DNA of 8,969 bases, taken from positions 1 through 8,969 of the forward strand of contig CAIVEA010000748.1 of assembly GCA_903904765.1 (NCBI GenBank), written 5' to 3'. Origin of the DNA: an uncultured Chloroflexota bacterium. GTDB taxonomy: Bacteria; Chloroflexota; Anaerolineae; Aggregatilineales; Phototrophicaceae. Positions 1 to 8,969 of this stretch are shown here, one piece after another. Within the stretch, counting starts at the first letter, position 1, and each line of letters begins with the position of its first letter. The translations under genes were made by a program, and so were the position numbers. The notes below the pieces were generated by a model. It made no database searches. It had not been told where the DNA came from and was given only the letters and a program-made list of their open reading frames with translations.

Positions 1-1
1 C

Positions 2-631
2 ATCGCTGATGACGGTTGGTTCGATGGCAACCTCGAAACCTATTTCACCTACGGCTGGAACGAACAGTTCACCGCCCTCGCCAGCAAAGAAGCGGCGATG
101 ATGATGATCGGCACATGGGGCTTCCGGGGCGCAGGGGAGTTCTTCAAGGACTCGGGTTCGGACTGGGACTGGGTTTCGATCCCGCCGTTCTCGGACATGG
201 CTGGCGAATATAACTACATGCTGGCAACGGGCAGCACCCTATCGGTCAACGGTCAGTCGAAGAACCCCGAAGCTGCCGTCGCCGTTCTGGACTTCCTGTT
301 CAGCGACCCGGCTCGCGTTCTGCAAATCGCCTCCGGCTACAGCTACGGTGAATTCGTTGTGCCGCTGCACTTCAAGGCATCGGACTTCCCCGAAGGCACC
401 GACCCCCGCATCTCGCGCTTCTATGAGGACTTCGCCGCTGTCACTGGTGCAGGCCGCGTGGGTTACACCACATGGACGTTCTGGCCGGCGGACTCCGATG
501 TTCAGCTGTGGAAGGAAATCGAACAGGTGTGGTACGGTGAACTGAGCGTGGAAGACTATCTGGCCGCGCATCAGGCCACATGGGACGAAGCCCGCGCCGC
601 AGGCAAGACTCTGCCCATCCCGGCACGCTAA
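2..631 (+). CDS. Sugar ABC transporter substrate-binding protein, family 1 (C-terminal part, 5' truncated by window edge)
   Basis: This is an extracellular solute-binding protein of a carbohydrate ABC importer (CUT1 type). It captures the sugar outside the membrane and delivers it to the two permeases encoded next. Only the last 209 residues are present; the frame is open from base 2 and the signal peptide and N-lobe lie upstream. Visible family signatures are the run EAAMMMIGTWG, where a tryptophan/glycine turn follows a hydrophobic strand, and later YNYMLATGSTLSVNG followed by KNPEAAVAVLDFLFSD, the usual C-lobe stretch before the helix that packs residues near the hinge. The C-terminal helices (LWKEIEQVWYGELSVEDYL, then a QATWDEAR segment) also match the family. 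The following permease genes support the call. The specific sugar cannot be told from this part. I am sure of the family and unsure of the ligand. Confidence 0.9.
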   Translation: MADDGWFDGNLETYFTYGWNEQFTALASKEAAMMMIGTWGFRGAGEFFKDSGSDWDWVSIPPFSDMAGEYNYMLATGSTLSVNGQSKNPEAAVAVLDFLFSDPARVLQIASGYSYGEFVVPLHFKASDFPEGTDPRISRFYEDFAAVTGAGRVGYTTWTFWPADSDVQLWKEIEQVWYGELSVEDYLAAHQATWDEARAAGKTLPIPAR

Positions 632-649
632 TCCGCGTTACAATGCACA

Positions 650-681
650 GGGAGGCCGCACCCGCGACCTCCCTTCTGTTT
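650..681 (+). terminator. Intercistronic stem-loop after the binding-protein gene (attenuator or mRNA stabiliser)
   Basis: Bases 650-659 pair with 664-673 (GGGAGG with CCTCCC, one C:A mismatch, then CGC with GCG) around a 4-nt ACCC loop. A T-rich but interrupted tail (ttctgttt) follows. The hairpin begins 18 nt after the binding-protein stop and ends 39 nt before the first permease start. Hairpins at this place in sugar ABC operons commonly make the binding protein more abundant than the permeases, by partial termination or by blocking 3' decay. That role is inferred here; the stem itself is visible. Confidence 0.6.
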
Positions 682-712
682 CTCAGCCACTACCCTCTCA
701 TCAGGAGTGAGC

Positions 713-1648
713 ATGAATTCATTCATCGCCAATGACGGCGCAGTTGCACCTACAAGGCAGCCCACTCCGTCATCCAAGCACGGCCTCCGCAATGTCCTCG
801 GACGATGGGCATTCATCATGCCGCTGATCGTCCTCAATCTGATCGTCATCATCATCCCATCCATCTTCGGGTTGCTGCTGGCCTTCACCGATTGGTCAGG
901 TTACGGGCCGATCAACTTTATCGGCACTGCCAATTTCACCAAACTATTTCAAGACAAGATTTTCTTTCAGTCCTTGACGCACAACCTCGTCTGGACGGCT
1001 TTCTTCCTGACAATCCCGATTGCAGTTGGGTTGCTGGGCGCATACCTGCTATCGGGCATCAAACGCGGACAAATGTTCTTCCGCATCGCCTATTTCCTGC
1101 CGTATGTGATCGCCAGCGTGGTCAACGCGCAGCTCTGGCGGCAGTTATTACACCCGCGAGTGGGCATCGGCCCGCTGCTGGCGCAAAATGGAATCACGTT
1201 TCTGGATTTCCCCATCTTCGGCACCAGCGAAACCTCGCTGATGGGCGTGGCCTTCGTGGATGCGTGGCATTTCTGGGGCTTTCTGGTCATCCTGTACCTG
1301 TCCGCCATGACTGCGGTGGATGTCGAACTCTACGAAGTGGCGCGGTTGGACGGTGCAACCCGCTTTCAACAGTTCCGCTACGTCACCCTGCCCAGCATCC
1401 GCCCCACGCTGGTGTTCACCATCCTCATGATTACCATCTGGTCATCGCTGGTATTCGATTACGTGTACATCATGACGAACGGTGGCCCTGCCAATTCGTC
1501 CGAAGTGATGGGGACTTACCTGTATCAGCACGCCTTTGACCGCTTCGATGTGGGCTATGCGGCCTCCATCGGCGTAATGATGAGCCTGTGGGCAATGATC
1601 GCGGTGGCTGGTTTCGTCATCCTGCGCCGCAGAGGATGGGATATCTAA
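713..1648 (+). CDS. Carbohydrate ABC transporter permease, MalF/UgpA type
   Basis: This is an inner-membrane permease subunit of a CUT1 sugar importer, 311 residues with about six hydrophobic segments after a short polar N-terminus. The first membrane segment is at about residues 32-58. The EAA loop that docks on the ATPase is at about residues 206-227: YEVARLDGA, then the invariant glycine, then VTLP about nine residues later. I chose the ATG at 713 because AGGAG at 703-707 precedes it by 5 nt. A GTG two codons earlier (707) would overlap that ribosome-binding site. The gene is followed after 1 nt by the second permease and preceded by the binding protein, so it belongs to one transport operon. 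Family and role are certain; the substrate is unknown. Confidence 0.95.
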   Translation: MNSFIANDGAVAPTRQPTPSSKHGLRNVLGRWAFIMPLIVLNLIVIIIPSIFGLLLAFTDWSGYGPINFIGTANFTKLFQDKIFFQSLTHNLVWTAFFLTIPIAVGLLGAYLLSGIKRGQMFFRIAYFLPYVIASVVNAQLWRQLLHPRVGIGPLLAQNGITFLDFPIFGTSETSLMGVAFVDAWHFWGFLVILYLSAMTAVDVELYEVARLDGATRFQQFRYVTLPSIRPTLVFTILMITIWSSLVFDYVYIMTNGGPANSSEVMGTYLYQHAFDRFDVGYAASIGVMMSLWAMIAVAGFVILRRRGWDI

Positions 1649-1649
1649 T

Positions 1650-2483
1650 ATGCTCAAGAAACAACGTGTGCAATCCAGCTTGCCCAACTACATTGTGCTG
1701 ACGGCACTGGCACTGTTCGCCATTGTGCCGATCGTCATCCTGTTCATGAACTCGGTAAAATCTACCGTCGAAATCGGCAAAAACCCGATTGGCTTCCCGC
1801 AGGAAATCCTGTGGGAGAACTTCCCGAATGCGTGGGAAAAAGGCGGCTATGCCGATACGGTTCGCAACAGCGTCATTCTGGTCAGTTCCACCATCGCTGG
1901 ATCGCTGACCATTGCGGGGCTGGCGGCTTATGCGCTGGCACGCCTCAAGCTGCGCGGGTCGGGGCTGATCGCGTTCTACTTTCTGGTGGGGACGAGCGTG
2001 CCACCGCAGTTGTTCATGGTGCCATTGTTCGTGATGTGGCGACAGGTCGGCCTCATCAATACACATCTCGGCCTCATCATCATCTACTGCGGGCTGTACT
2101 CACCCTTCGCCACTTACCTGCTGCGCTCTTATATGGTTGGACTCCCGGAAGAATTCATCGAGGCAGCACGCATTGACGGCGCAAGCAATATGCAGGTGTT
2201 CACCAAAATCATCCTGCCTCTGTCGTGGCCGGGCTTCATGACCGCCGGTCTGGTGATCGGCCTGAACGTGTGGAACGAATTCCTGTTCGCCCTCACCTTC
2301 CTGCAAGACCCGACCTACAAACCCATCGCCACCAGCCTATTCGCCTTTCAGGGACGCTTCAGCCGCGACTGGGGGCTGACCAGCGCCGGATCGGTAATTA
2401 TGGTGCTGCCTGTCATCATTCTATTCTTGCTATTACAGCGCCGCTTCATCGAAGGCCTTACCGCCGGCGGCCTGAAGGGTTAA
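1650..2483 (+). CDS. Carbohydrate ABC transporter permease, MalG/UgpE type
   Basis: This is the second membrane subunit of the same importer, 277 residues, the usual length for MalG-type partners. The first hydrophobic helix is at about residues 14-34. A periplasmic stretch with the ENFPNAW element typical of this subunit follows (about 56-62), then further helices. The EAA loop is well kept at about 167-190: PEEFIEAARIDGA, the key glycine at 177, and ILP at 188-190. The ATG lies 1 nt after the stop of the first permease, so the two are translationally coupled. Only a weak purine stretch (AGAGGA, 1631-1636) lies upstream. The pair would form the heterodimeric channel. No ATP-binding subunit is encoded nearby, so a shared ATPase elsewhere in the genome is inferred. 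Confidence 0.95.
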   Translation: MLKKQRVQSSLPNYIVLTALALFAIVPIVILFMNSVKSTVEIGKNPIGFPQEILWENFPNAWEKGGYADTVRNSVILVSSTIAGSLTIAGLAAYALARLKLRGSGLIAFYFLVGTSVPPQLFMVPLFVMWRQVGLINTHLGLIIIYCGLYSPFATYLLRSYMVGLPEEFIEAARIDGASNMQVFTKIILPLSWPGFMTAGLVIGLNVWNEFLFALTFLQDPTYKPIATSLFAFQGRFSRDWGLTSAGSVIMVLPVIILFLLLQRRFIEGLTAGGLKG

Positions 2484-2487
2484 CCAC

Positions 2488-4569
2488 ATGACCACCATAC
2501 CGAATGATTATCTAGAGCGCGTATATGCCGGCGTGCTAGGCAAACTAATCGGCGTATATCTGGGTCGGCCTTTTGAGGGCTGGTCGTATGAAAAGATCAT
2601 GGCGCAACTGGGCGAAATCACGAATTACGTCCATGAACGCCTGAACAAGCCGCTGATCGTGACCGATGACGACATCTCCGGCACGTTCACCTTCCTGCGG
2701 GCGCTGCCCGATCACGGCTACAGCCGCGACCTGACCGCCGCGCAAATCGGTCACACATGGCTGAACTACCTGATCGAACGGCGCACCATTCTGTGGTGGG
2801 GCGGCAAAGGCAACTCCACCGAACACACCGCCTACATGCGGCTGAAGCAGGGCATCGAAGCGCCCGACAGCGGCTCGATTGCCACCAACGGCAAAATCGT
2901 GGCGGAGCAGATCGGGGCGCAAATCTTCATTGACGGTTGGGCGATGGTCGCCCCCGGCGATCCGGCCTTAGCTGCCGACCTCGCCCGTCGCGCTGCCAGC
3001 GTCAGCCACGATGGTGAAGCCATCTACGGCGCGCAGGTGATCGCGGTGATGGAGGCGCTGGCCTTCGTAGAAAGCGACCTGAACAAGCTACTGGATGCTG
3101 CACTGACGTTTATCCCCGCCGACTCGACCATCACCCGCATGATTGGCGATATTCGCGGCTGGCACAAGCAAGAACCGGACTGGCGTAAAGCGCGGGCGTT
3201 GCTGGAAGCCAACTACGGCTACGACAAATACGGCGGCGTGTGCCACATGGTTCCCAATCACGGACTGATTATCCTCAGCCTGCTGTATGGAGAGGACGAT
3301 TTCAACAAATCGCTGATGATCGTCAACACCTCCGGCTGGGACACCGACTGCAACTCCGGCAACGTGGGCTGCCTGCTGGGGATCAAAAACGGGCTGGCGA
3401 CACTGGAAGGTAAAGTGGACTGGCGCGGGCCGGTGGCTGACCGCATGTACATCTCCAGCGCGGATGGCGGACGCTCGATCACCGATGCGCTCACCGAAAG
3501 CGTGCATATCGTGAACACAGGCCGCCAACTGGCCGGCCTCGCGCCGCAAGCGCCCAAACAGGGGGCACGTTTCCACTTCGACCAAGCGGGTGCGGTGCAG
3601 GGCTTCCAGTCCAGCGAAGGCAGCGTGATGCTGGAAAATGTGGTGGGACACAGTGCGCTTGGCTCGCGCAGTCTGGCGCTGCACTGTCAGGGCGTGTCCG
3701 CGCCGGTCATCATCAGCACACTCACGGCGATGCCAGCGGATATTGGCGCGCCCCCACCCTACGACATGGCGGTTTCGCCCACGCTGTACCCCACGCAGAC
3801 CGTCCGCGCCACCCTGAGCGCCGACAGCAGCAACCGCCAACCGATCAGCGGACGGCTTGTGGTTTCTGCCTATGACGCACTCGATCAACCGATTACTCGC
3901 ACTGGCCCGGCCTTCAGCGCCGCGCCGGGAGCAACGCTCGAAACTGCATGGACGCTGGATAGCGATTTAATTTCGCCCATCGTGCGCGTCGGGCTTCAGT
4001 TGGACGAACACGCGGAAGGTACACTATACCTCGACACGCTGACATGGGACGGCATGCCCACGCTCACCCTCAAGCGTCCGGGCAAGAACAGCCTGCGTTG
4101 GCGCGAAGCGTGGGTGAGCGCGATGGATCACTTCGATCCATTCTGGTACGAATCGTTCCGCGTGGCGCACAACAGCGGACGTGGCATGGTCATTCAAGGC
4201 ACACGCGAATGGCGCGACTATCAAGTATCCGCCGACATCATCCCGCACATGATTGACGCGGGCGGCCTCGGCATCCGTGTGCAGGGGATGCGCCGCTATT
4301 ACGCGCTGCTCATCACCCGCAACCGCAAAATCCGGCTGGTGAAGATGCTCTCGAAGGAAACGGTGCTAGCAGAAGCCGATTTCGCATGGAACGAGGAAGA
4401 AACGATCTCGTTGCGCGTGTCCGCCGAGGGCAACCGCCTGCGGGGATGGGCGAACGGTCAACTGGTGCTGGATGTGACCGACAACGACCAACCGCTGCTG
4501 GGAGGCGGGGCGGCGCTGGTGTGCGAGGACGGCAGCCTTTCGACGGACGAGGTGTGCGTCGCGCCGTAA
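2488..4569 (+). CDS. ADP-ribosylglycohydrolase-family protein with C-terminal beta-sandwich and concanavalin-like domains
   Basis: The N-terminal ~340 residues have the all-helical ADP-ribosylglycohydrolase (DraG/ARH) fold, which in known members uses two Mg2+ or Mn2+ ions to cleave N- or O-glycosidic bonds to ADP-ribose. Visible metal-site motifs are E30 in a GRPFEG segment, T59-D60-D61-D62 (VTDDDISGT), HDGE at 174-177, and GWDTDCNSG with D285 and D287. The residue after D287 is Cys288, where characterised enzymes usually have Thr. Residues ~355-525 look like a beta-sandwich linker. Residues ~545-690 resemble a LamG/concanavalin-like jelly roll (WRDYQVSADI, GIRVQG, GWANGQLVLDV), often carbohydrate-linked. 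At 693 residues it is about twice the length of a plain DraG protein. No signal peptide is visible, so it should be cytoplasmic. It starts 4 nt after the permease stop with GAAGGG at 2474-2479 as ribosome-binding site. The operon position argues for processing an imported glycoside rather than protein de-ADP-ribosylation; this is inference. Confidence 0.85.
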   Translation: MTTIPNDYLERVYAGVLGKLIGVYLGRPFEGWSYEKIMAQLGEITNYVHERLNKPLIVTDDDISGTFTFLRALPDHGYSRDLTAAQIGHTWLNYLIERRTILWWGGKGNSTEHTAYMRLKQGIEAPDSGSIATNGKIVAEQIGAQIFIDGWAMVAPGDPALAADLARRAASVSHDGEAIYGAQVIAVMEALAFVESDLNKLLDAALTFIPADSTITRMIGDIRGWHKQEPDWRKARALLEANYGYDKYGGVCHMVPNHGLIILSLLYGEDDFNKSLMIVNTSGWDTDCNSGNVGCLLGIKNGLATLEGKVDWRGPVADRMYISSADGGRSITDALTESVHIVNTGRQLAGLAPQAPKQGARFHFDQAGAVQGFQSSEGSVMLENVVGHSALGSRSLALHCQGVSAPVIISTLTAMPADIGAPPPYDMAVSPTLYPTQTVRATLSADSSNRQPISGRLVVSAYDALDQPITRTGPAFSAAPGATLETAWTLDSDLISPIVRVGLQLDEHAEGTLYLDTLTWDGMPTLTLKRPGKNSLRWREAWVSAMDHFDPFWYESFRVAHNSGRGMVIQGTREWRDYQVSADIIPHMIDAGGLGIRVQGMRRYYALLITRNRKIRLVKMLSKETVLAEADFAWNEEETISLRVSAEGNRLRGWANGQLVLDVTDNDQPLLGGGAALVCEDGSLSTDEVCVAP

Positions 4570-4599
4570 ACCGCCACGACAACTGATAAAAGACGATAA

Positions 4600-4633
4600 A
4601 AGAAGGGTGCATTGTGCGCCCTTCTTTATTTTT
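4600..4633 (+). terminator. Intrinsic terminator closing the sugar-uptake operon
   Basis: A 12-bp stem pairs 4600-4611 with 4615-4626 (one T:G wobble, GGG/CCC core), with a 3-nt TTG loop and a run of T residues (ttatttttc) from 4625. It begins 31 nt after the glycohydrolase stop. The A-rich left flank pairs with the T tail, so it may also work weakly for transcription from the right. This is the clearest terminator in the window. It also rules out starting the next gene at the TTG at 4612, which lies in the loop. Confidence 0.9.
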
Positions 4634-4661
4634 CTACTCCACTCCAAAAGACGATTCAACT

Positions 4662-4667
4662 TATAAT
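4662..4667 (+). promoter_or_regulatory. Candidate -10 box (TATAAT) for the secreted-protein gene
   Basis: A perfect TATAAT hexamer lies between the operon terminator and the start codon at 4705, giving a leader of about 30 nt. I see no good -35 hexamer at 16-18 nt spacing (bases 4638-4645 read tccactcc), so the promoter may depend on an activator or use a nonstandard -35. Between it and the gene is an imperfect direct repeat, TTTACGCACTTA (4681-4692) and TTTACGCTTA (4696-4705). Confidence 0.45.
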
Positions 4668-4704
4668 GAACGTAATCCAATTTACGCACTTAGGATTTAC
4701 GCTT

Positions 4705-6372
4705 ATGACACCACGGTTTCTCAAAAAACTCCCTTTGCTGCTGTTCGTCCTGCCCTTGATGCTGGCGCTGGCAACCTCGGTGGCACAGGATAACGCCTGT
4801 GATGCCATCGTCCAGCAAGCATTGAGCAGTTTGGGACAGAACTGTGATTTGATGGATCGTAACAGCGCCTGCTACGGCTTCAACAAACTGGGCGCGACCT
4901 TCAATCAGGTACAGGCGGACGACTTCTTCACCCGCGTCAGTGACCGCACTCCGCTGAACATCGTGGATACCATCACCTCCACCCCGCTGGATACCACCAA
5001 CAATACATGGGGTGTGGCGGTGATGAAGGTACAGGCCAACGTCCCCAACTCGTTACCCGGTCAGGCGGTAACGTTCGTGCTGCTCGGCGATGCACAGGTT
5101 CGCAACGATGTATCGCCTGCCGATGCCTTCACTCCTGCCGACGGCGTGGATGTGAGCGCCATCGGCAGCGTGAATATCCGCAGCGCCCCCAGCACCCGCG
5201 CCAACGTCCTCGGCAGTGTGCCGAATGGCACGGTGCTGCCCGCCGATGGGCGCAGCGCGGATGGCGAATGGCTGCGGGTGCTGTTCAACGCCTCGCCAGC
5301 GTGGATTAATCGCAGTCTGGTGAACGCGCCGGATGCCGCCGACAGCCTGCCCGTCATCACTTCTGAACTGCGAACCCCCATGCAGGCCTTCTATGTAACA
5401 ACAGGCATAGGGTCATCGGTCAATTGCAACAAAGCGCCTGATGTGCTGATGGTACAGGGACCTGACCACATGAAGGTGAACCTGACCGTCAACGGCGCAG
5501 ATGTGCAGATCGGCTCGACCATCGTCATCCGCAGCCAACGTGTCACGTTGCGCGACATTCTGAACAACGAAGAACTCATGAAGCAGTTCAGGGAAGAACT
5601 GGGGGGGCTGTCTCTGCCCGATGATCTGGATTGCAACCTGAGCCAATTATTCGTGGTGGATGGGCAAGCCGATGTGAATGACGACACGCTCACCTTGCCA
5701 ACAGGCTTCACCGCCCGTTCGCTGGATTGCGGTGGCGCAGATCGCACCAGTAGTTTCCGCAGTTTCTGGGGTGGCTTGCGCCCGATGACACAGGAAGAAC
5801 TGAACGAACTGAAGGTGCTGGAAAACATTCCACCCGAATTGCTGGATTATCCGATTCATGTCCCCACGCAGGGCGAAATTCAGGAAATCGTGAATGCCCT
5901 CGGGGGTGGCGGTGGCGCAGCGACCACTGGCGAAGTGGGCAATCCGGCAGAATGCAGCAACCTGCGCCCCACATCCCCGCTGGGCGGAATACCGGGCGGT
6001 CAAGTGACTTTCTACTGGGATGGAATCGCAAAAGCGACCAGCTACACGGTGCGCGTGTATGACAGCGGCGGGCAGGTGGCCGAATATTCGACTAGCGCCC
6101 CTCAAACCAACGTCACAGGCACACCGGGCGGCACAGGCGCGATGTACTGGGATGTGTCGGCCTACATTGACGGGCGCTTGGCCTGCACCAGCGCCCGCGC
6201 TTCCGGCGTGCGCGATACGGTTTACAGTACAGCGATTCCACCCACAGCGGCCTATGTCACCACCTGTGTCAACACCTTTGTTGACCCGTATGCGTGCGTT
6301 TCGCCTTGCACGTTGGGCGCAACCTGTGGCACGTATCCCGGGAAAGAATTCCTTTGCACCTGTCCAGCATAG
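4705..6372 (+). CDS. Secreted SH3b-domain protein with FN3-like segment and truncated EGF-like tail
   Basis: This is an exported 555-residue protein of unknown function. The ATG at 4705 is preceded by TAGGA (4691-4695) and gives a typical signal peptide: basic MTPRFLKK, hydrophobic core to ~22, likely cleavage after Ser-Val-Ala at 25-27. The frame is open further upstream to 4612, but that lies inside the operon terminator. Residues ~30-56 hold a cysteine-containing helical region (C32, C47, C56). Residues ~147-207 form a bacterial SH3b domain (VNIRSAPST, VLGSVPNGT, GEWLRVLF, AWINRSLV), which in other proteins binds cell-wall or peptide ligands. Residues ~255-330 look like another beta-rich module. 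After a Gly-rich linker (~399-404) comes an FN3-like segment (~417-500: VTFYWDGIAKATSYTVRVYD). The last 35 residues carry six cysteines in an EGF-like arrangement. A surface or envelope role is likely; the exact function is not recognisable. Confidence 0.85.
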   Translation: MTPRFLKKLPLLLFVLPLMLALATSVAQDNACDAIVQQALSSLGQNCDLMDRNSACYGFNKLGATFNQVQADDFFTRVSDRTPLNIVDTITSTPLDTTNNTWGVAVMKVQANVPNSLPGQAVTFVLLGDAQVRNDVSPADAFTPADGVDVSAIGSVNIRSAPSTRANVLGSVPNGTVLPADGRSADGEWLRVLFNASPAWINRSLVNAPDAADSLPVITSELRTPMQAFYVTTGIGSSVNCNKAPDVLMVQGPDHMKVNLTVNGADVQIGSTIVIRSQRVTLRDILNNEELMKQFREELGGLSLPDDLDCNLSQLFVVDGQADVNDDTLTLPTGFTARSLDCGGADRTSSFRSFWGGLRPMTQEELNELKVLENIPPELLDYPIHVPTQGEIQEIVNALGGGGGAATTGEVGNPAECSNLRPTSPLGGIPGGQVTFYWDGIAKATSYTVRVYDSGGQVAEYSTSAPQTNVTGTPGGTGAMYWDVSAYIDGRLACTSARASGVRDTVYSTAIPPTAAYVTTCVNTFVDPYACVSPCTLGATCGTYPGKEFLCTCPA

Positions 6373-6379
6373 GGAAATG

Positions 6380-6431
6380 CCCTCACCACGCACCTCTCTC
6401 CCAACCGCTGAGTACAGCTAGGAGAGGGGTG
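6380..6431 (+). repeat. Short hairpin-forming intergenic repeat, copy 1 (R1)
   Basis: The segment begins ccctcacc and contains an 11-bp stem, 6391-6401 pairing with 6421-6431 (CACCTCTCTCC with GGAGAGGGGTG, one wobble), around a 19-nt loop with a small inner GCT/AGC pairing. Its reverse complement matches 8543-8593 at roughly 43 of 51 positions by hand alignment. It lies 7 nt after the secreted-protein stop and between convergent genes, so it may act as a bidirectional terminator, although no T tract follows. Confidence 0.75.
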
Positions 6432-6442
6432 CTATATGGGGA

Positions 6443-6475
6443 TTTGTAGGAACGACACAGGCTATGTCCTACGAA
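6443..6475. repeat. Inverted repeat in the convergent intergenic region
   Basis: Bases 6443-6451 (TTTGTAGGA) pair with 6467-6475 (TCCTACGAA), one T:G wobble, around a 15-nt spacer. It sits between the two convergent genes and is separate from the neighbouring R1 hairpin. It could be a second terminator-type hairpin or a remnant of a mobile-element end. The rest of 6476-6532 shows nothing I recognise. Confidence 0.4.
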
Positions 6476-6532
6476 AGAGGGTGCATTTCAAGCGAAAAGA
6501 GTGCGTCACAGGCTCTACGGTTCGGAGGCGGG

Positions 6533-7678
6533 TCAACGCGCCTGCCTCCACCGCCCTTTGACCGCCGCGCCCACGCGCAACACTCCGGCACGGCAAGGCT
6601 GCTCCACCACTTCGTAGAACAACGCGCTCATCAGGCACAGGCTTATCAGCACGAAGGGCAGCGCCAATACATGCTGTGGATTAATCGCCGCCACTACCAG
6701 CGCCGCCAGCGGTGTGGCCTGTAGCAGATACAGCGCATACGAGATGCGCCCCAGATAAACTGGCAGACGCAGGCTCAAAAGACGCGAAAACGGGGCGCTA
6801 GTGCGGGTCAGCGCCAGAATCAAGCAGGCGGCCATGAACGCGATCAGCGGGTTCAGCCCCCACGCCGCCTCCAACCCGCCCGCCGCGTTCATCACCATTT
6901 GCAACCCGAACAGCCCCAGCAACCCGACGACGAACAGCGCCGTCGCCGCCGCGTCCGGCAGGGGGACAGCCCACAGTTTGCGCCCGTAGCGCAGGTATAG
7001 CAGCCCGGCGAAAATGCCGATGCAGAAATCCACCCCACGCCCGAACACACTGTACCCCGCCATCACGAACAGGTTATCCATAAAGCCGTAAGGGGCGTTC
7101 AGGCCGAGCGCGGGCGACAATCGCGTGAGCAACCACCCTATCCCCCACAGCGCCCCCGCCCACAACACCAGCCCGCGCAACACCCGCCATAGTGAACGCC
7201 GATGCGGTACGCACGAGTGCAAAATCAGCGGTGCGATCAGGTAGAACGATTCTTCCACCGAGAGCGACCACGCCACGATGATTCCGCTGAGCGCGATCTG
7301 GCTGAAATAAGATTGCGTGAGCGTCCAGTTCATGAACGGGGCGGGCGTGTAGGTCTGATAGGGGGTGAGCGCATCCACCAGCAGCGTGAGACCCAGCAGC
7401 ACCCAGTACAGCGGCAGGATGCGTGCCCCACGCCGCAGGAAATAGTCGAAGGTCGAGAAGCGTCCTTCCACGAAAGCGGGGAAGTAGCGCAGCGCCAGCA
7501 AGAAACCGGACAGCGTGAAGAAGATCGTCACCCCGGCGTGGCCTTCAATCACGATGCTCTGCCACGCCTGTGATGCGCGTCCATAATGAATGCCGCTGTA
7601 ATGGGTGAGGAACACCAGCAGTGCCGCCCCGAAACGTAGCGCCGTCAAGGGGCGTATTTCGTGACCCTCATCCCCCAC
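6533..7678 (-). CDS. Membrane acyltransferase, acyltransferase-3 (OafA-like) family
   Basis: This is a multi-pass membrane enzyme that would transfer an acyl group (typically acetyl) to a surface sugar or related acceptor. From the GTG at 7678 it has 381 residues and about ten hydrophobic segments. Family motifs occur in order: R15-x10-H26 in the first helix (LRFGAALLVFLTH), the proposed catalytic Arg/His pair; FFTLSGF at 53-59; RRGARILPLYW at 82-92; and WSLSVEESFYL at 137-147. I chose the GTG at 7678 because AGGGAG lies 6 nt upstream and the protein then begins just before the conserved first helix. An upstream in-frame GTG at 7771 would add 31 residues encoded mostly by repeat R3 and has only a poor ribosome-binding site. 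It probably shares a transcript with the TetR gene upstream. The C-terminal ~20 residues are basic. The substrate is unknown. Confidence 0.9.
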   Translation of the reverse strand: MGDEGHEIRPLTALRFGAALLVFLTHYSGIHYGRASQAWQSIVIEGHAGVTIFFTLSGFLLALRYFPAFVEGRFSTFDYFLRRGARILPLYWVLLGLTLLVDALTPYQTYTPAPFMNWTLTQSYFSQIALSGIIVAWSLSVEESFYLIAPLILHSCVPHRRSLWRVLRGLVLWAGALWGIGWLLTRLSPALGLNAPYGFMDNLFVMAGYSVFGRGVDFCIGIFAGLLYLRYGRKLWAVPLPDAAATALFVVGLLGLFGLQMVMNAAGGLEAAWGLNPLIAFMAACLILALTRTSAPFSRLLSLRLPVYLGRISYALYLLQATPLAALVVAAINPQHVLALPFVLISLCLMSALFYEVVEQPCRAGVLRVGAAVKGRWRQAR

Positions 7679-7748
7679 CCCATTCTCCCTCAGAGCGAAA
7701 GGGAGTCTCAAATCCCTCGACCTGAGGGAGAGGGATTTAGGGTGAGGG
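7665..7748. repeat. MITE-like inverted-repeat element R3, overlapping the acyltransferase 5' end
   Basis: An 84-bp element begins ccctcatccccc and ends ttagggtgaggg, so its termini are inverted repeats. Inside are two small hairpins: CTCCCT (7685-7690) with AGGGAG (7700-7705), and CCCTC (7714-7718) with GAGGG (7724-7728). Its ends resemble those of 8471-8593. On the minus strand it is open for all 28 codons and in frame with the acyltransferase. I see no clear target-site duplication. Confidence 0.75.
7685..7690 (-). promoter_or_regulatory. Ribosome-binding site supplied by repeat R3
   Basis: On the minus strand this reads AGGGAG, 6 nt before the GTG at 7678. It decides the preferred acyltransferase start. 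It is also one arm of an R3 hairpin, so folding of the element could hide it. Confidence 0.55.
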
Positions 7749-7776
7749 TTTGCCTCCGCATCAAATCCCACCTGTT

Positions 7777-8373
7777 TCAGGGCAGCACCAGCCGTTCAAC
7801 CGCATCCAGCAGGCCGCCGCGCACCTGCTCGAACGAGTAGCCGCGCACCTGCCGCAGGAAGTACACAGTATGCACATCCAGCAGGACATACAGCGTGTCT
7901 GCGAGGTAATCCAGATTGCCAGCCGCGCCCAGTTGCATCAGCAGGCCGCGTATCGTCTGCCGCCACCACCAATGCGCTGGTTGCTGCAACGACTCGACCA
8001 CGCCCGTCGAGACACACAAAAATTGCGCGTTGCGTTCCACGAAGCCTAGCGCCTCGCCCAGAAACCAGCGCAGATTATCGAGCGCATCCGGCATTTCGCG
8101 CAAGCGGAGCAAGGTGCGCTCCTGCAACCCGCGTTGATCTACATCCAGCAGCGCCTGACACAGTTCGGTCTTGTTCTCAAAATGGCGGTACAGTGTCCCT
8201 TTGCCCACGCCCGCCGCTTCCGCAATCGCCGTCATAGATACCGCATCCACGCCCTGCGATGCGAACAACGCCGCTGCCGTTTCCAGCAGCAGAGCGCGGT
8301 TCTTGACCGCATCCGAACGGGTGGGATGTGGGTCGGGGATGAGCAAGCTGTTGAGAGGAACGGTAGCTGTCAT
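7777..8373 (-). CDS. TetR/AcrR-family transcriptional regulator
   Basis: This is a 198-residue one-component repressor of usual family length. The N-terminal DNA-binding domain starts at about residue 25 (ALLLETAAALFASQGVDAVS), and its helix-turn-helix spans about residues 46-65 (MTAIAEAAGVGKGTLYRHF). ENKTEL and the start of helix 4 follow. Residues ~80-198 are the helical ligand-binding and dimer domain, whose effector cannot be read from sequence. The ATG at 8373 has no strong ribosome-binding site and leaves a ~20-residue polar N-tail. The acyltransferase lies directly downstream on the same strand, so co-transcription is likely. The AT-rich palindromic leader upstream suggests autoregulation. 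The call is secure at family level; target genes are inferred from position only. Confidence 0.93.
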   Translation of the reverse strand: MTATVPLNSLLIPDPHPTRSDAVKNRALLLETAAALFASQGVDAVSMTAIAEAAGVGKGTLYRHFENKTELCQALLDVDQRGLQERTLLRLREMPDALDNLRWFLGEALGFVERNAQFLCVSTGVVESLQQPAHWWWRQTIRGLLMQLGAAGNLDYLADTLYVLLDVHTVYFLRQVRGYSFEQVRGGLLDAVERLVLP

Positions 8374-8428
8374 GGACGAATACTCGCGCTAAAACGGTCA
8401 GAACGGTGCGACCAGAGCGCACCCCTTC

Positions 8429-8465
8429 ATTGTACAAAACAATTGTTGTTTTATCGCAAACAATC
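8429..8465 (-). promoter_or_regulatory. Probable tetR promoter/operator region with clustered ACAAT/ATTGT palindromes
   Basis: This AT-rich patch in otherwise GC-rich DNA holds TTGTACAA (8430-8437), the perfect palindrome AACAATTGTT (8438-8447), and the inverted pair ATTGT/ACAAT spaced by 5 nt (8429-8433 and 8439-8443). A further ACAAT lies at 8460-8464. On the minus strand TACAAT (8434-8429) fits a -10 box, with a possible TTGCGA -35 at a long 19-nt spacing. Operator overlap with the -10 would suit TetR autorepression; this is inferred. Confidence 0.5.
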
Positions 8466-8470
8466 TAAGA

Positions 8471-8593
8471 CCCTCATCCCCAGCCCTTCTCCCTCAAGGC
8501 GAAGGGAGCAAGACAAACAGATACGGCATGTATTATCTTCTTCCCCTCGCCTAGCTGTACCCGGCGGTTGGGAGAGGGGACGAGGGGTGAGGG
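8471..8593. repeat. MITE-like inverted-repeat element R2 (containing the segment shared with R1)
   Basis: A 123-bp element starts ccctcatccccagccc and ends acgaggggtgaggg, giving imperfect terminal inverted repeats. An internal hairpin, CTCCCT...AGGGAG-like, lies near 8490-8508. The right part, 8543-8593, is the near-copy of R1 in opposite orientation. It carries CCCCTC (8543-8548) pairing with GAGGGG (8574-8579). No coding potential is visible. It lies 8 nt beyond the stop of the small membrane-protein gene and upstream of the tetR promoter patch. Confidence 0.75.
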
Positions 8594-8601
8594 CAATCCC
8601 T

Positions 8602-8766
8602 CTACCTCCGCCGTGAAATAGCAATGCTTGTCAGGCCGAGAATGACGAGGGCGACGATACCCGCCGTCGCGGTATCGCCTCTGGCAAACACGAATAGCGC
8701 CGCCGCCATCACGATCAGGGCAACGCCCACCACCAACCGGGACTGATTGAGCCGTGAATGCTGCAT
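8602..8766 (-). CDS. Small membrane protein with two helices, unknown function
   Basis: This is a 54-residue protein with a polar, basic start (MQHSRLNQSR), a hydrophobic helix at about 11-27, a short FARGDTATAG turn, a second helix at about 38-49 and a basic SRRR end. The layout suggests an inner-membrane hairpin. I chose the ATG at 8766 because GGAGGAG at 8773-8779 lies just upstream at ideal spacing. An earlier in-frame ATG at 8796 would add ten residues and lacks such a site. No family is recognised. It stands alone between the R2 repeat and a minus-strand terminator-like hairpin, so it is probably its own unit. Confidence 0.65.
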   Translation of the reverse strand: MQHSRLNQSRLVVGVALIVMAAALFVFARGDTATAGIVALVILGLTSIAISRRR

Positions 8767-8772
8767 GATGCG

Positions 8773-8779
8773 CTCCTCC
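8773..8779 (-). promoter_or_regulatory. Strong ribosome-binding site of the 54-residue gene
   Basis: GGAGGAG on the minus strand, with the GGAGG core ending 8 nt before the ATG at 8766. It is the best Shine-Dalgarno match in the window and sets the start of the small gene. Confidence 0.7.
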
Positions 8780-8860
8780 ACATAGTCGGCACACATCTAC
8801 ACCTTCACTGTAACCCCGAACGGGGAGAATACGCCGAACACAGAATAGGCAATATGCACG

Positions 8861-8898
8861 AAAACGCCCGCAACACGCTCATTCAGGCGTTGCGGGCG
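8861..8898 (-). terminator. Minus-strand intrinsic-type terminator
   Basis: A perfect 10-bp GC-rich stem pairs 8865-8874 (CGCCCGCAAC) with 8889-8898 (GTTGCGGGCG) around a 14-nt loop. On the minus strand it is followed by TTTT (8864-8861). It lies 14 nt beyond the stop of the partial gene at the right edge, the expected place for that gene's terminator. Confidence 0.6.
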
Positions 8899-8912
8899 CT
8901 GTTGATGCCTCA

Positions 8913-8969
8913 CTACCCCACCCTTTCCTCATGCGCGTCACGGTGAAAGGCGTAAAACGCATTCCTTCC
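8913..8969 (-). CDS. C-terminal end of an unidentified minus-strand gene (truncated by window edge)
   Basis: Reading leftward from the right edge, one frame gives 18 residues ending NAFYAFHRDAHEERVG and a TAG stop at 8915-8913. The terminator-like hairpin follows 14 nt later, which favours this frame. The second minus frame stays open into the hairpin and the third stops early. The fragment is too short to identify a family. Confidence 0.35.
   Translation of the reverse strand, partial: GRNAFYAFHRDAHEERVG

Follow-up and report, generated by a model that had tools for sequence, protein, structure and literature searches.

A MITE-like repeat at the 5′ end of an acyltransferase gene in uncultured Chloroflexota: an apparently displaced native start and a possible restart within the repeat

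How does a protein gene keep a working start when a repeat comes to lie on its first codons? This question is raised by a contig of an uncultured Chloroflexota bacterium (GenBank assembly GCA_903904765.1, contig CAIVEA010000748.1), whose positions 1 to 8,969 were analyzed as a whole and are called the window below. The window contains sugar ABC-transporter-like genes together with genes encoding an ADP-ribosylglycohydrolase, an SH3-domain protein, a TetR-family regulator and an acyltransferase-3. On the minus strand, the order is tetR (8373-7777), an inverted repeat, and then the Pfam domain of the acyltransferase, and the same locus was found in a sister genome, designated G001, where it is called L001. 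The three features at issue are the following.

7777..8373, minus strand: TetR-family regulator gene, directly upstream of the acyltransferase and conserved in L001
7664..7749, strand unassigned: apparently inserted inverted-repeat (MITE-like) element of 86 nt, ACCCTCACCC...GATGAGGGT on the minus strand, delimited by its fold z score, the G001 copies and the ends of 57 copies
6533..7663, minus strand: acyltransferase-3 (PF01757) gene body, dN/dS 0.105 against L001

The longest open reading frame of the acyltransferase runs from 7771 to 6533 on the minus strand and comprises 412 codons. Its assignment to PF01757 is given by a profile match of 84.5 bits (curated cut-off 31, residues 43-381) together with the N-terminal R-x10-H, that is, R46 and H57 of the 412-codon frame, which are invariant in all 27 sequences of an alignment of the window protein with 26 of its 81 homologues. 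The arginine is the 10th codon beyond the element, and the conserved family sequence thus begins a few codons after the repeat, as a preliminary description of this DNA had noted. At gathering scores, Rfam gave no match in the window. Two more repeats of a related type, with 37-nt inverted arms that are 89% alike, are located at 6378-6432 and 8468-8597, and the one upstream of tetR is found in L001 too.

The inverted repeat at the acyltransferase 5′ end is real and far beyond chance, the hairpin across 7660-7754 having a z of -5.5 on the plus and -5.2 on the minus strand, a stability that none of 200 shuffles reached on either strand. From the sequence, the element appears to have been inserted at the gene's 5′ end. 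The preliminary description had treated it as an 84-bp unit, an exact multiple of three without a stop in the acyltransferase frame. The stretch 7665-7748 does measure 84 nt, but the ends of the repeat family, A/G-CCCTCA ... TGAGGG-T/C, each lie one base outside it, so that the window unit is 86 nt, or 2 mod 3. The acyltransferase frame is indeed stop-free across the element in the window, and it is open in both genomes, but this is unremarkable because 24 of 55 other element copies also lack a stop in that phase. A sigma-70-like promoter match (9/12) lies within the element at 7711-7682 on the minus strand and is directed at the acyltransferase.

Genome-wide counts of the element were made in G001, where at least 53 matches were obtained at E <= 1 with 40 of 93 candidates scored. 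At E <= 1e-5 the element was present in 65 of the 154 genomes of the order, in a search that scored up to five candidates per genome and is not a copy-number count, while 16 of 72,556 plasmid records matched it at E <= 1, the 6 covering at least 80% of the query being cyanobacterial. Taking as full-length those copies in which both ends match the family pattern, we obtained 57 distinct sequences of 82-110 nt from 70 loci and the window (one from the window, two nested from locus L095; 15 of the 70 loci gave none), one of which starts with C; 40 of the loci were picked from the best-scoring full-length places in the order-wide search and not at random. Of 55 copies, 17 had flanks agreeing over 1 nt, 7 over 2 nt, 2 over 3 nt and 3 over 4 nt, and the 2-nt and 4-nt agreements are somewhat above the ~3 and 0.2 expected for equal bases. 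A target-site duplication of constant length was seen neither among these 55 other copies nor at the focal site. The element is short and has terminal inverted repeats, a hairpin and many dispersed copies, as MITEs do, and it is named MITE-like here, as no more than a candidate member of an IS-derived MITE family. An assignment to REP/REPIN with RAYT was rejected: the tags GTAG and CGTC, as defined for REP/REPIN in PMC3733652, are absent from both strands of the window element, and no RAYT association is visible in the draft G001, where two Y1 transposase (PF01797) loci contain no exact match to the end motif in either 3.3-kb locus.

Among the G001 copies, one of 104 nt (L044 1481-1585, G001:C330) lies within an uninterrupted frame of 734 codons that includes a PMT_2 (mannosyltransferase) domain and is a possible in-gene insertion. 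At L042, L053, L055, L058 and L059, neighbouring ORFs have their most upstream start in the element ends (GTGAGGGT, GATGAGGGT) and begin VRV... or MRV.... These G001 loci were considered as parallel cases and set aside as more likely spurious starts; the Pfam domain begins at residue 38 in L042 (minus) and 79 in L058, and Pfam gave no match for the ORFs of L042 (plus), L053, L055 and L059.

The sister locus L001 (CAIPFY010000101.1, an uncultured Chloroflexi MAG) is colinear with window 653-8950 at 86.7% DNA identity, and its acyltransferase shares 92% protein identity with that of the window. It carries the element at the identical site, GGCAA / element / CACGA, with identical flanks in both genomes. 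The L001 copy is 92 nt long and 82.6% identical to the window copy over 86 aligned bases, and the net 6-nt difference in length keeps the frame. At L001 5925-5938, a CCGCATTCGCGTCA stretch takes the place of the TCTCCCTCA-like sequence of the window copy, and as the copy at L047 has CCGCATTCGCGTCA too, exchange between copies may have occurred. Between window and L001, the acyltransferase body shows dN 0.043, dS 0.409 and dN/dS 0.105 over 376 codons without an indel, with 28, 15 and 87 differences at codon positions 1, 2 and 3, respectively; dN/dS is 0.062 across the first 40 codons and 0.080 in the neighbouring tetR. Judged by these substitutions, the acyltransferase is under purifying selection after the insertion. 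Since both genomes share the insertion site, the insertion predates their split, and together with purifying selection this suggests that a working start has existed since.

The original start can be proposed from the two loci and the protein family.

7759..7761, minus strand: putative native start ATG, out of the acyltransferase frame, present in L001 too; removal of the insert restores the homologue spacing

In the window, ATG 7761-7759 is followed by CGG AGG CAA and then by the element. Without the insert, these codons are joined to CAC GAA and read M-R-R-Q-H-E-I-R-P-L, and L001 treated likewise reads M-M-G-Q-H-E-I-R-P-L, so that the M-x4-E-I-R-P-L spacing equals that of the closest element-free homologues. 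The preliminary description had proposed a comparison with orthologues, and the closest homologues without the element (P0002-P0007) have no N-terminal extension, with 5-8 residues before the motif. In 12 of the 25 homologues P0002-P0026, among them all 6 of the closest (P0002-P0007), the nearest methionine precedes the IRPLT motif by exactly 5 residues; in the other 13 the distance is 2-36 residues. Given that two sequences and the family spacing agree, ATG 7761 was probably the ancestral start. The insert is 86 nt in the window and 92 nt in L001, 2 mod 3 in both, and the native ATG is therefore out of frame; what matters is this shift of a native ATG out of frame, and not the multiple of three named in the preliminary description. 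Its view that the insertion rebuilt the 5′ end holds in that the native start appears displaced, but the original ATG persists upstream, out of frame. Window and L001 share only 73% identity over the 30-nt leader region, a value close to neutral, which makes the kept ATG weak evidence of its use. The protein must now start elsewhere, most likely inside the inserted repeat.

DNA of a close element-free orthologue was not found, L001 being the only locus above 45% identity in protein searches of 101 relatives, 396 genomes from the class and 154 from the order to which G001 belongs (overlapping sets; E-value limits 1e-3, 1e-20 and 1e-15) and in a pattern search with two exact peptides (90 stretches, 37 relatives). 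Three loci (L069, L070 and L082; 42%, 41% and 45%) were rejected as empty-site comparisons for their too diverged upstream regions, and the homologues at 68-69% identity are known here as proteins only. When residues 1-60 were used as the query for other element-coded N-termini, only P0001 and P0002 were returned (2 of 39 candidates), and the match to P0002 presumably falls in the part after the element. The database protein P0001, 91% identical, begins MREKGAGDEGHEIRPL and matches L001 from an ATG inside the element, a start that is the gene-caller's choice and not data.

Nine candidate starts in the window were scored for opening energy (kcal/mol) and Shine-Dalgarno pairing, among them the following.

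7769..7771, minus strand: upstream in-frame GTG of the 412-codon ORF, GCG in L001
7681..7683, minus strand: out-of-frame ATG within the element, 12-codon ORF
7676..7690, minus strand: AGGGAG (7690-7685), AATGGG and GTG (7678-7676), the start proposed in the preliminary description; this GTG is GCA in L001
7669..7671, minus strand: out-of-frame ATG in the terminal GATGAGGGT of the element, 8-codon ORF
7646..7648, minus strand: in-frame TTG just beyond the element, 371-codon ORF, minor candidate, CTG in L001

The native ATG 7761 is the most accessible of the nine (13.5 kcal/mol), TTG 7648 is nearly as accessible (14.9), and the in-frame TTG, CTG and GTG codons inside the window element take 23.0-32.3 kcal/mol to open. 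In L001, the native ATG has modest Shine-Dalgarno pairing (-4.8) and no advantage in accessibility over the internal ATG (20.4 versus 17.8 kcal/mol). No in-frame ATG, GTG or TTG start is conserved between window and L001 in the region scored, and inspection by eye revealed no X-XXY-YYZ slippery site for a -1 frameshift from the native frame.

The frame that opens at the native ATG runs into the element in both genomes and ends there in a four-base overlap.

7708..7761, minus strand: 17-codon leader ORF from the native ATG (MRRQTLTLNPSPSGRGI), ending at a TGA in the element
7708..7711, minus strand: TTGA, in which the leader stop TGA (7710-7708) overlaps an acyltransferase-frame TTG (7711-7709), in or beside the apical loop of the predicted hairpin

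In L001, the corresponding leader ORF has 25 codons and ends in the element at ATGA, so that both loci show the -4 nt overlap of coupled gene pairs, TTGA in the window and ATGA in L001. The best explanation, to which we give a rough probability of 0.45, is that the insertion displaced the native start and that a leader from the native ATG now leads to reinitiation within the element. A MITE-like element would have inserted between codons 4 and 5 of the acyltransferase in the common ancestor of window and L001. Ribosomes would still begin at the native ATG and translate the short leader into the element, the translating ribosome would open the hairpin, and reinitiation would take place where the leader TGA overlaps the acyltransferase-frame start by 4 nt. 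The element would thereby give the acyltransferase its start codon along with N-terminal codons, 16 in the window and 10 in L001, and the original start signal would still drive its translation. To what is directly observed, namely one insertion site, inserts of 86 and 92 nt, a kept out-of-frame upstream ATG and purifying selection, the model would add leader translation and a restart at TTGA or ATGA.

Across 1,695 species, no other spacing between genes comes close in frequency to overlaps of 4 nt and 1 nt (PMC10666635), and strict coupling was reported for 13 of 14 overlapping pairs tested (PMC6728339). The overlap is nevertheless cheap, since in this frame relation any leader-frame TGA gives an acyltransferase-frame NTG. 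Of the 26 other copies whose length is 2 mod 3, only 3 have an NTGA-type overlap with the acyltransferase-frame start, which speaks for the model, two of these 3 being nested matches at L095; the comparison was chosen post hoc, however, the focal copies have a common ancestry, and over all lengths the geometry occurs in 14 of 55 other copies. The focal copies place the overlap differently, at element nt 39 and 63, and the restart codons are not conserved (the window TTG is TTC in L001, and the L001 ATG is CTG in the window). The L001 restart ATG, 30 nt before CAC, has no Shine-Dalgarno pairing (+0.4), which counts against reinitiation given that, of 5 E. coli pairs, 4 showed less of it once the Shine-Dalgarno motif was removed (PMC6728339). 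That the repeat made a two-part start, with a repeat-encoded leader and a reinitiated enzyme whose restart codon was re-invented separately in the two lineages, is a tentative and rather doubtful proposal.

Translation could instead start upstream in the acyltransferase frame, at GTG 7771 in the window and, in L001, at a TTG six bases beyond that position, and read through the element as an extension of ~30 residues in a 412-residue protein. The frame is open across the element in both genomes, both longest ORFs have 412 codons, and the length difference between the copies preserves the frame. We consider this unlikely, since the two starts stand at non-homologous positions (the L001 TTG is TTT in the window, as the window GTG is GCG in L001), Shine-Dalgarno pairing is poor at GTG 7771 (-2.8), which takes 20.7 kcal/mol to open, many element-coded residues differ between the genomes, the phase is open in many other copies as well, and P0001 was called from the internal ATG. 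Still less probable is de novo initiation in the element, at AGGGAG and GTG 7678 in the window, as the preliminary description had it, and at the ATG 30 nt before CAC in L001. AGGGAG, 6 nt and GTG are present on the minus strand as described and have the best Shine-Dalgarno score of the nine (-8.5), and P0001 is gene-called from an element ATG; yet this GTG is not kept in L001, it is the most occluded of all (32.3 kcal/mol), the element ATGs 7683 and 7671 next to it are out of frame, and the L001 ATG lacks Shine-Dalgarno pairing. That the window gene is on its way out, with a broken start and a frame not decayed yet, would fit the want of a start codon conserved in frame in the scored region but is very improbable in view of the low dN/dS of the body, its first 40 codons and the adjoining tetR, with dS ~0.41 and no indel in 376 codons.

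A working start codon encoded by the element, as two of the three live models have it, is probable, and the preliminary description is partly supported: the element probably supplies the start, by another codon and another mechanism than AGGGAG and GTG 7678. The locus is a natural experiment, in which an apparently frame-shifting insertion four codons into a gene is followed by purifying selection in two lineages whose possible restart codons differ, and from it one would learn how genes of bacteria survive when a repeat inserts at their starts. Since the repeats often end the entering frame at TGA (30 of 57 copies), a copy that inserts close to a start and in the right phase could, if the preferred model of leader and reinitiation is true, offer rescue, and this could be general for MITE insertions at 5′ ends. 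It is also a warning that automatic start calls beside such repeats (ends GTGAGGGT or GATGAGGGT) can be repeat-derived.

Among open-access titles and abstract openings, none described this repeat or a coupled leader made by a MITE. Bacterial MITEs, such as intragenic ERIC and large BOX, resemble the element in being short inverted repeats with many copies and a hairpin, sometimes at or in ORFs, whereas the element here has no target-site duplication of constant length and its autonomous partner was not identified. REP/REPIN likewise have two inverted halves and many dispersed copies, but the window element lacks GTAG/CGTC and the Y1 loci of G001 lack its end motif. In 4-nt (ATGA) termination-reinitiation, a stop and a start overlap as the leader stop and the acyltransferase-frame start do in both genomes; the usual coupling joins two real genes, whereas here the upstream ORF would consist of the gene's displaced start and codons from the repeat, and the start in the window overlap is TTG. 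In-frame insertion of repeats into genes is already known from Rickettsia, whose palindromic elements (RPE) are, like the element here, short palindromic repeats that add residues to a protein gene, and are described as in-frame fusions encoding a conserved peptide (PMC10969869). The element here differs from RPE in that it is 2 mod 3, displaces the start, and codes for many residues that differ between the two genomes. What is distinct here is that a repeat insertion appears to have displaced the start of a gene, and the gene survived.
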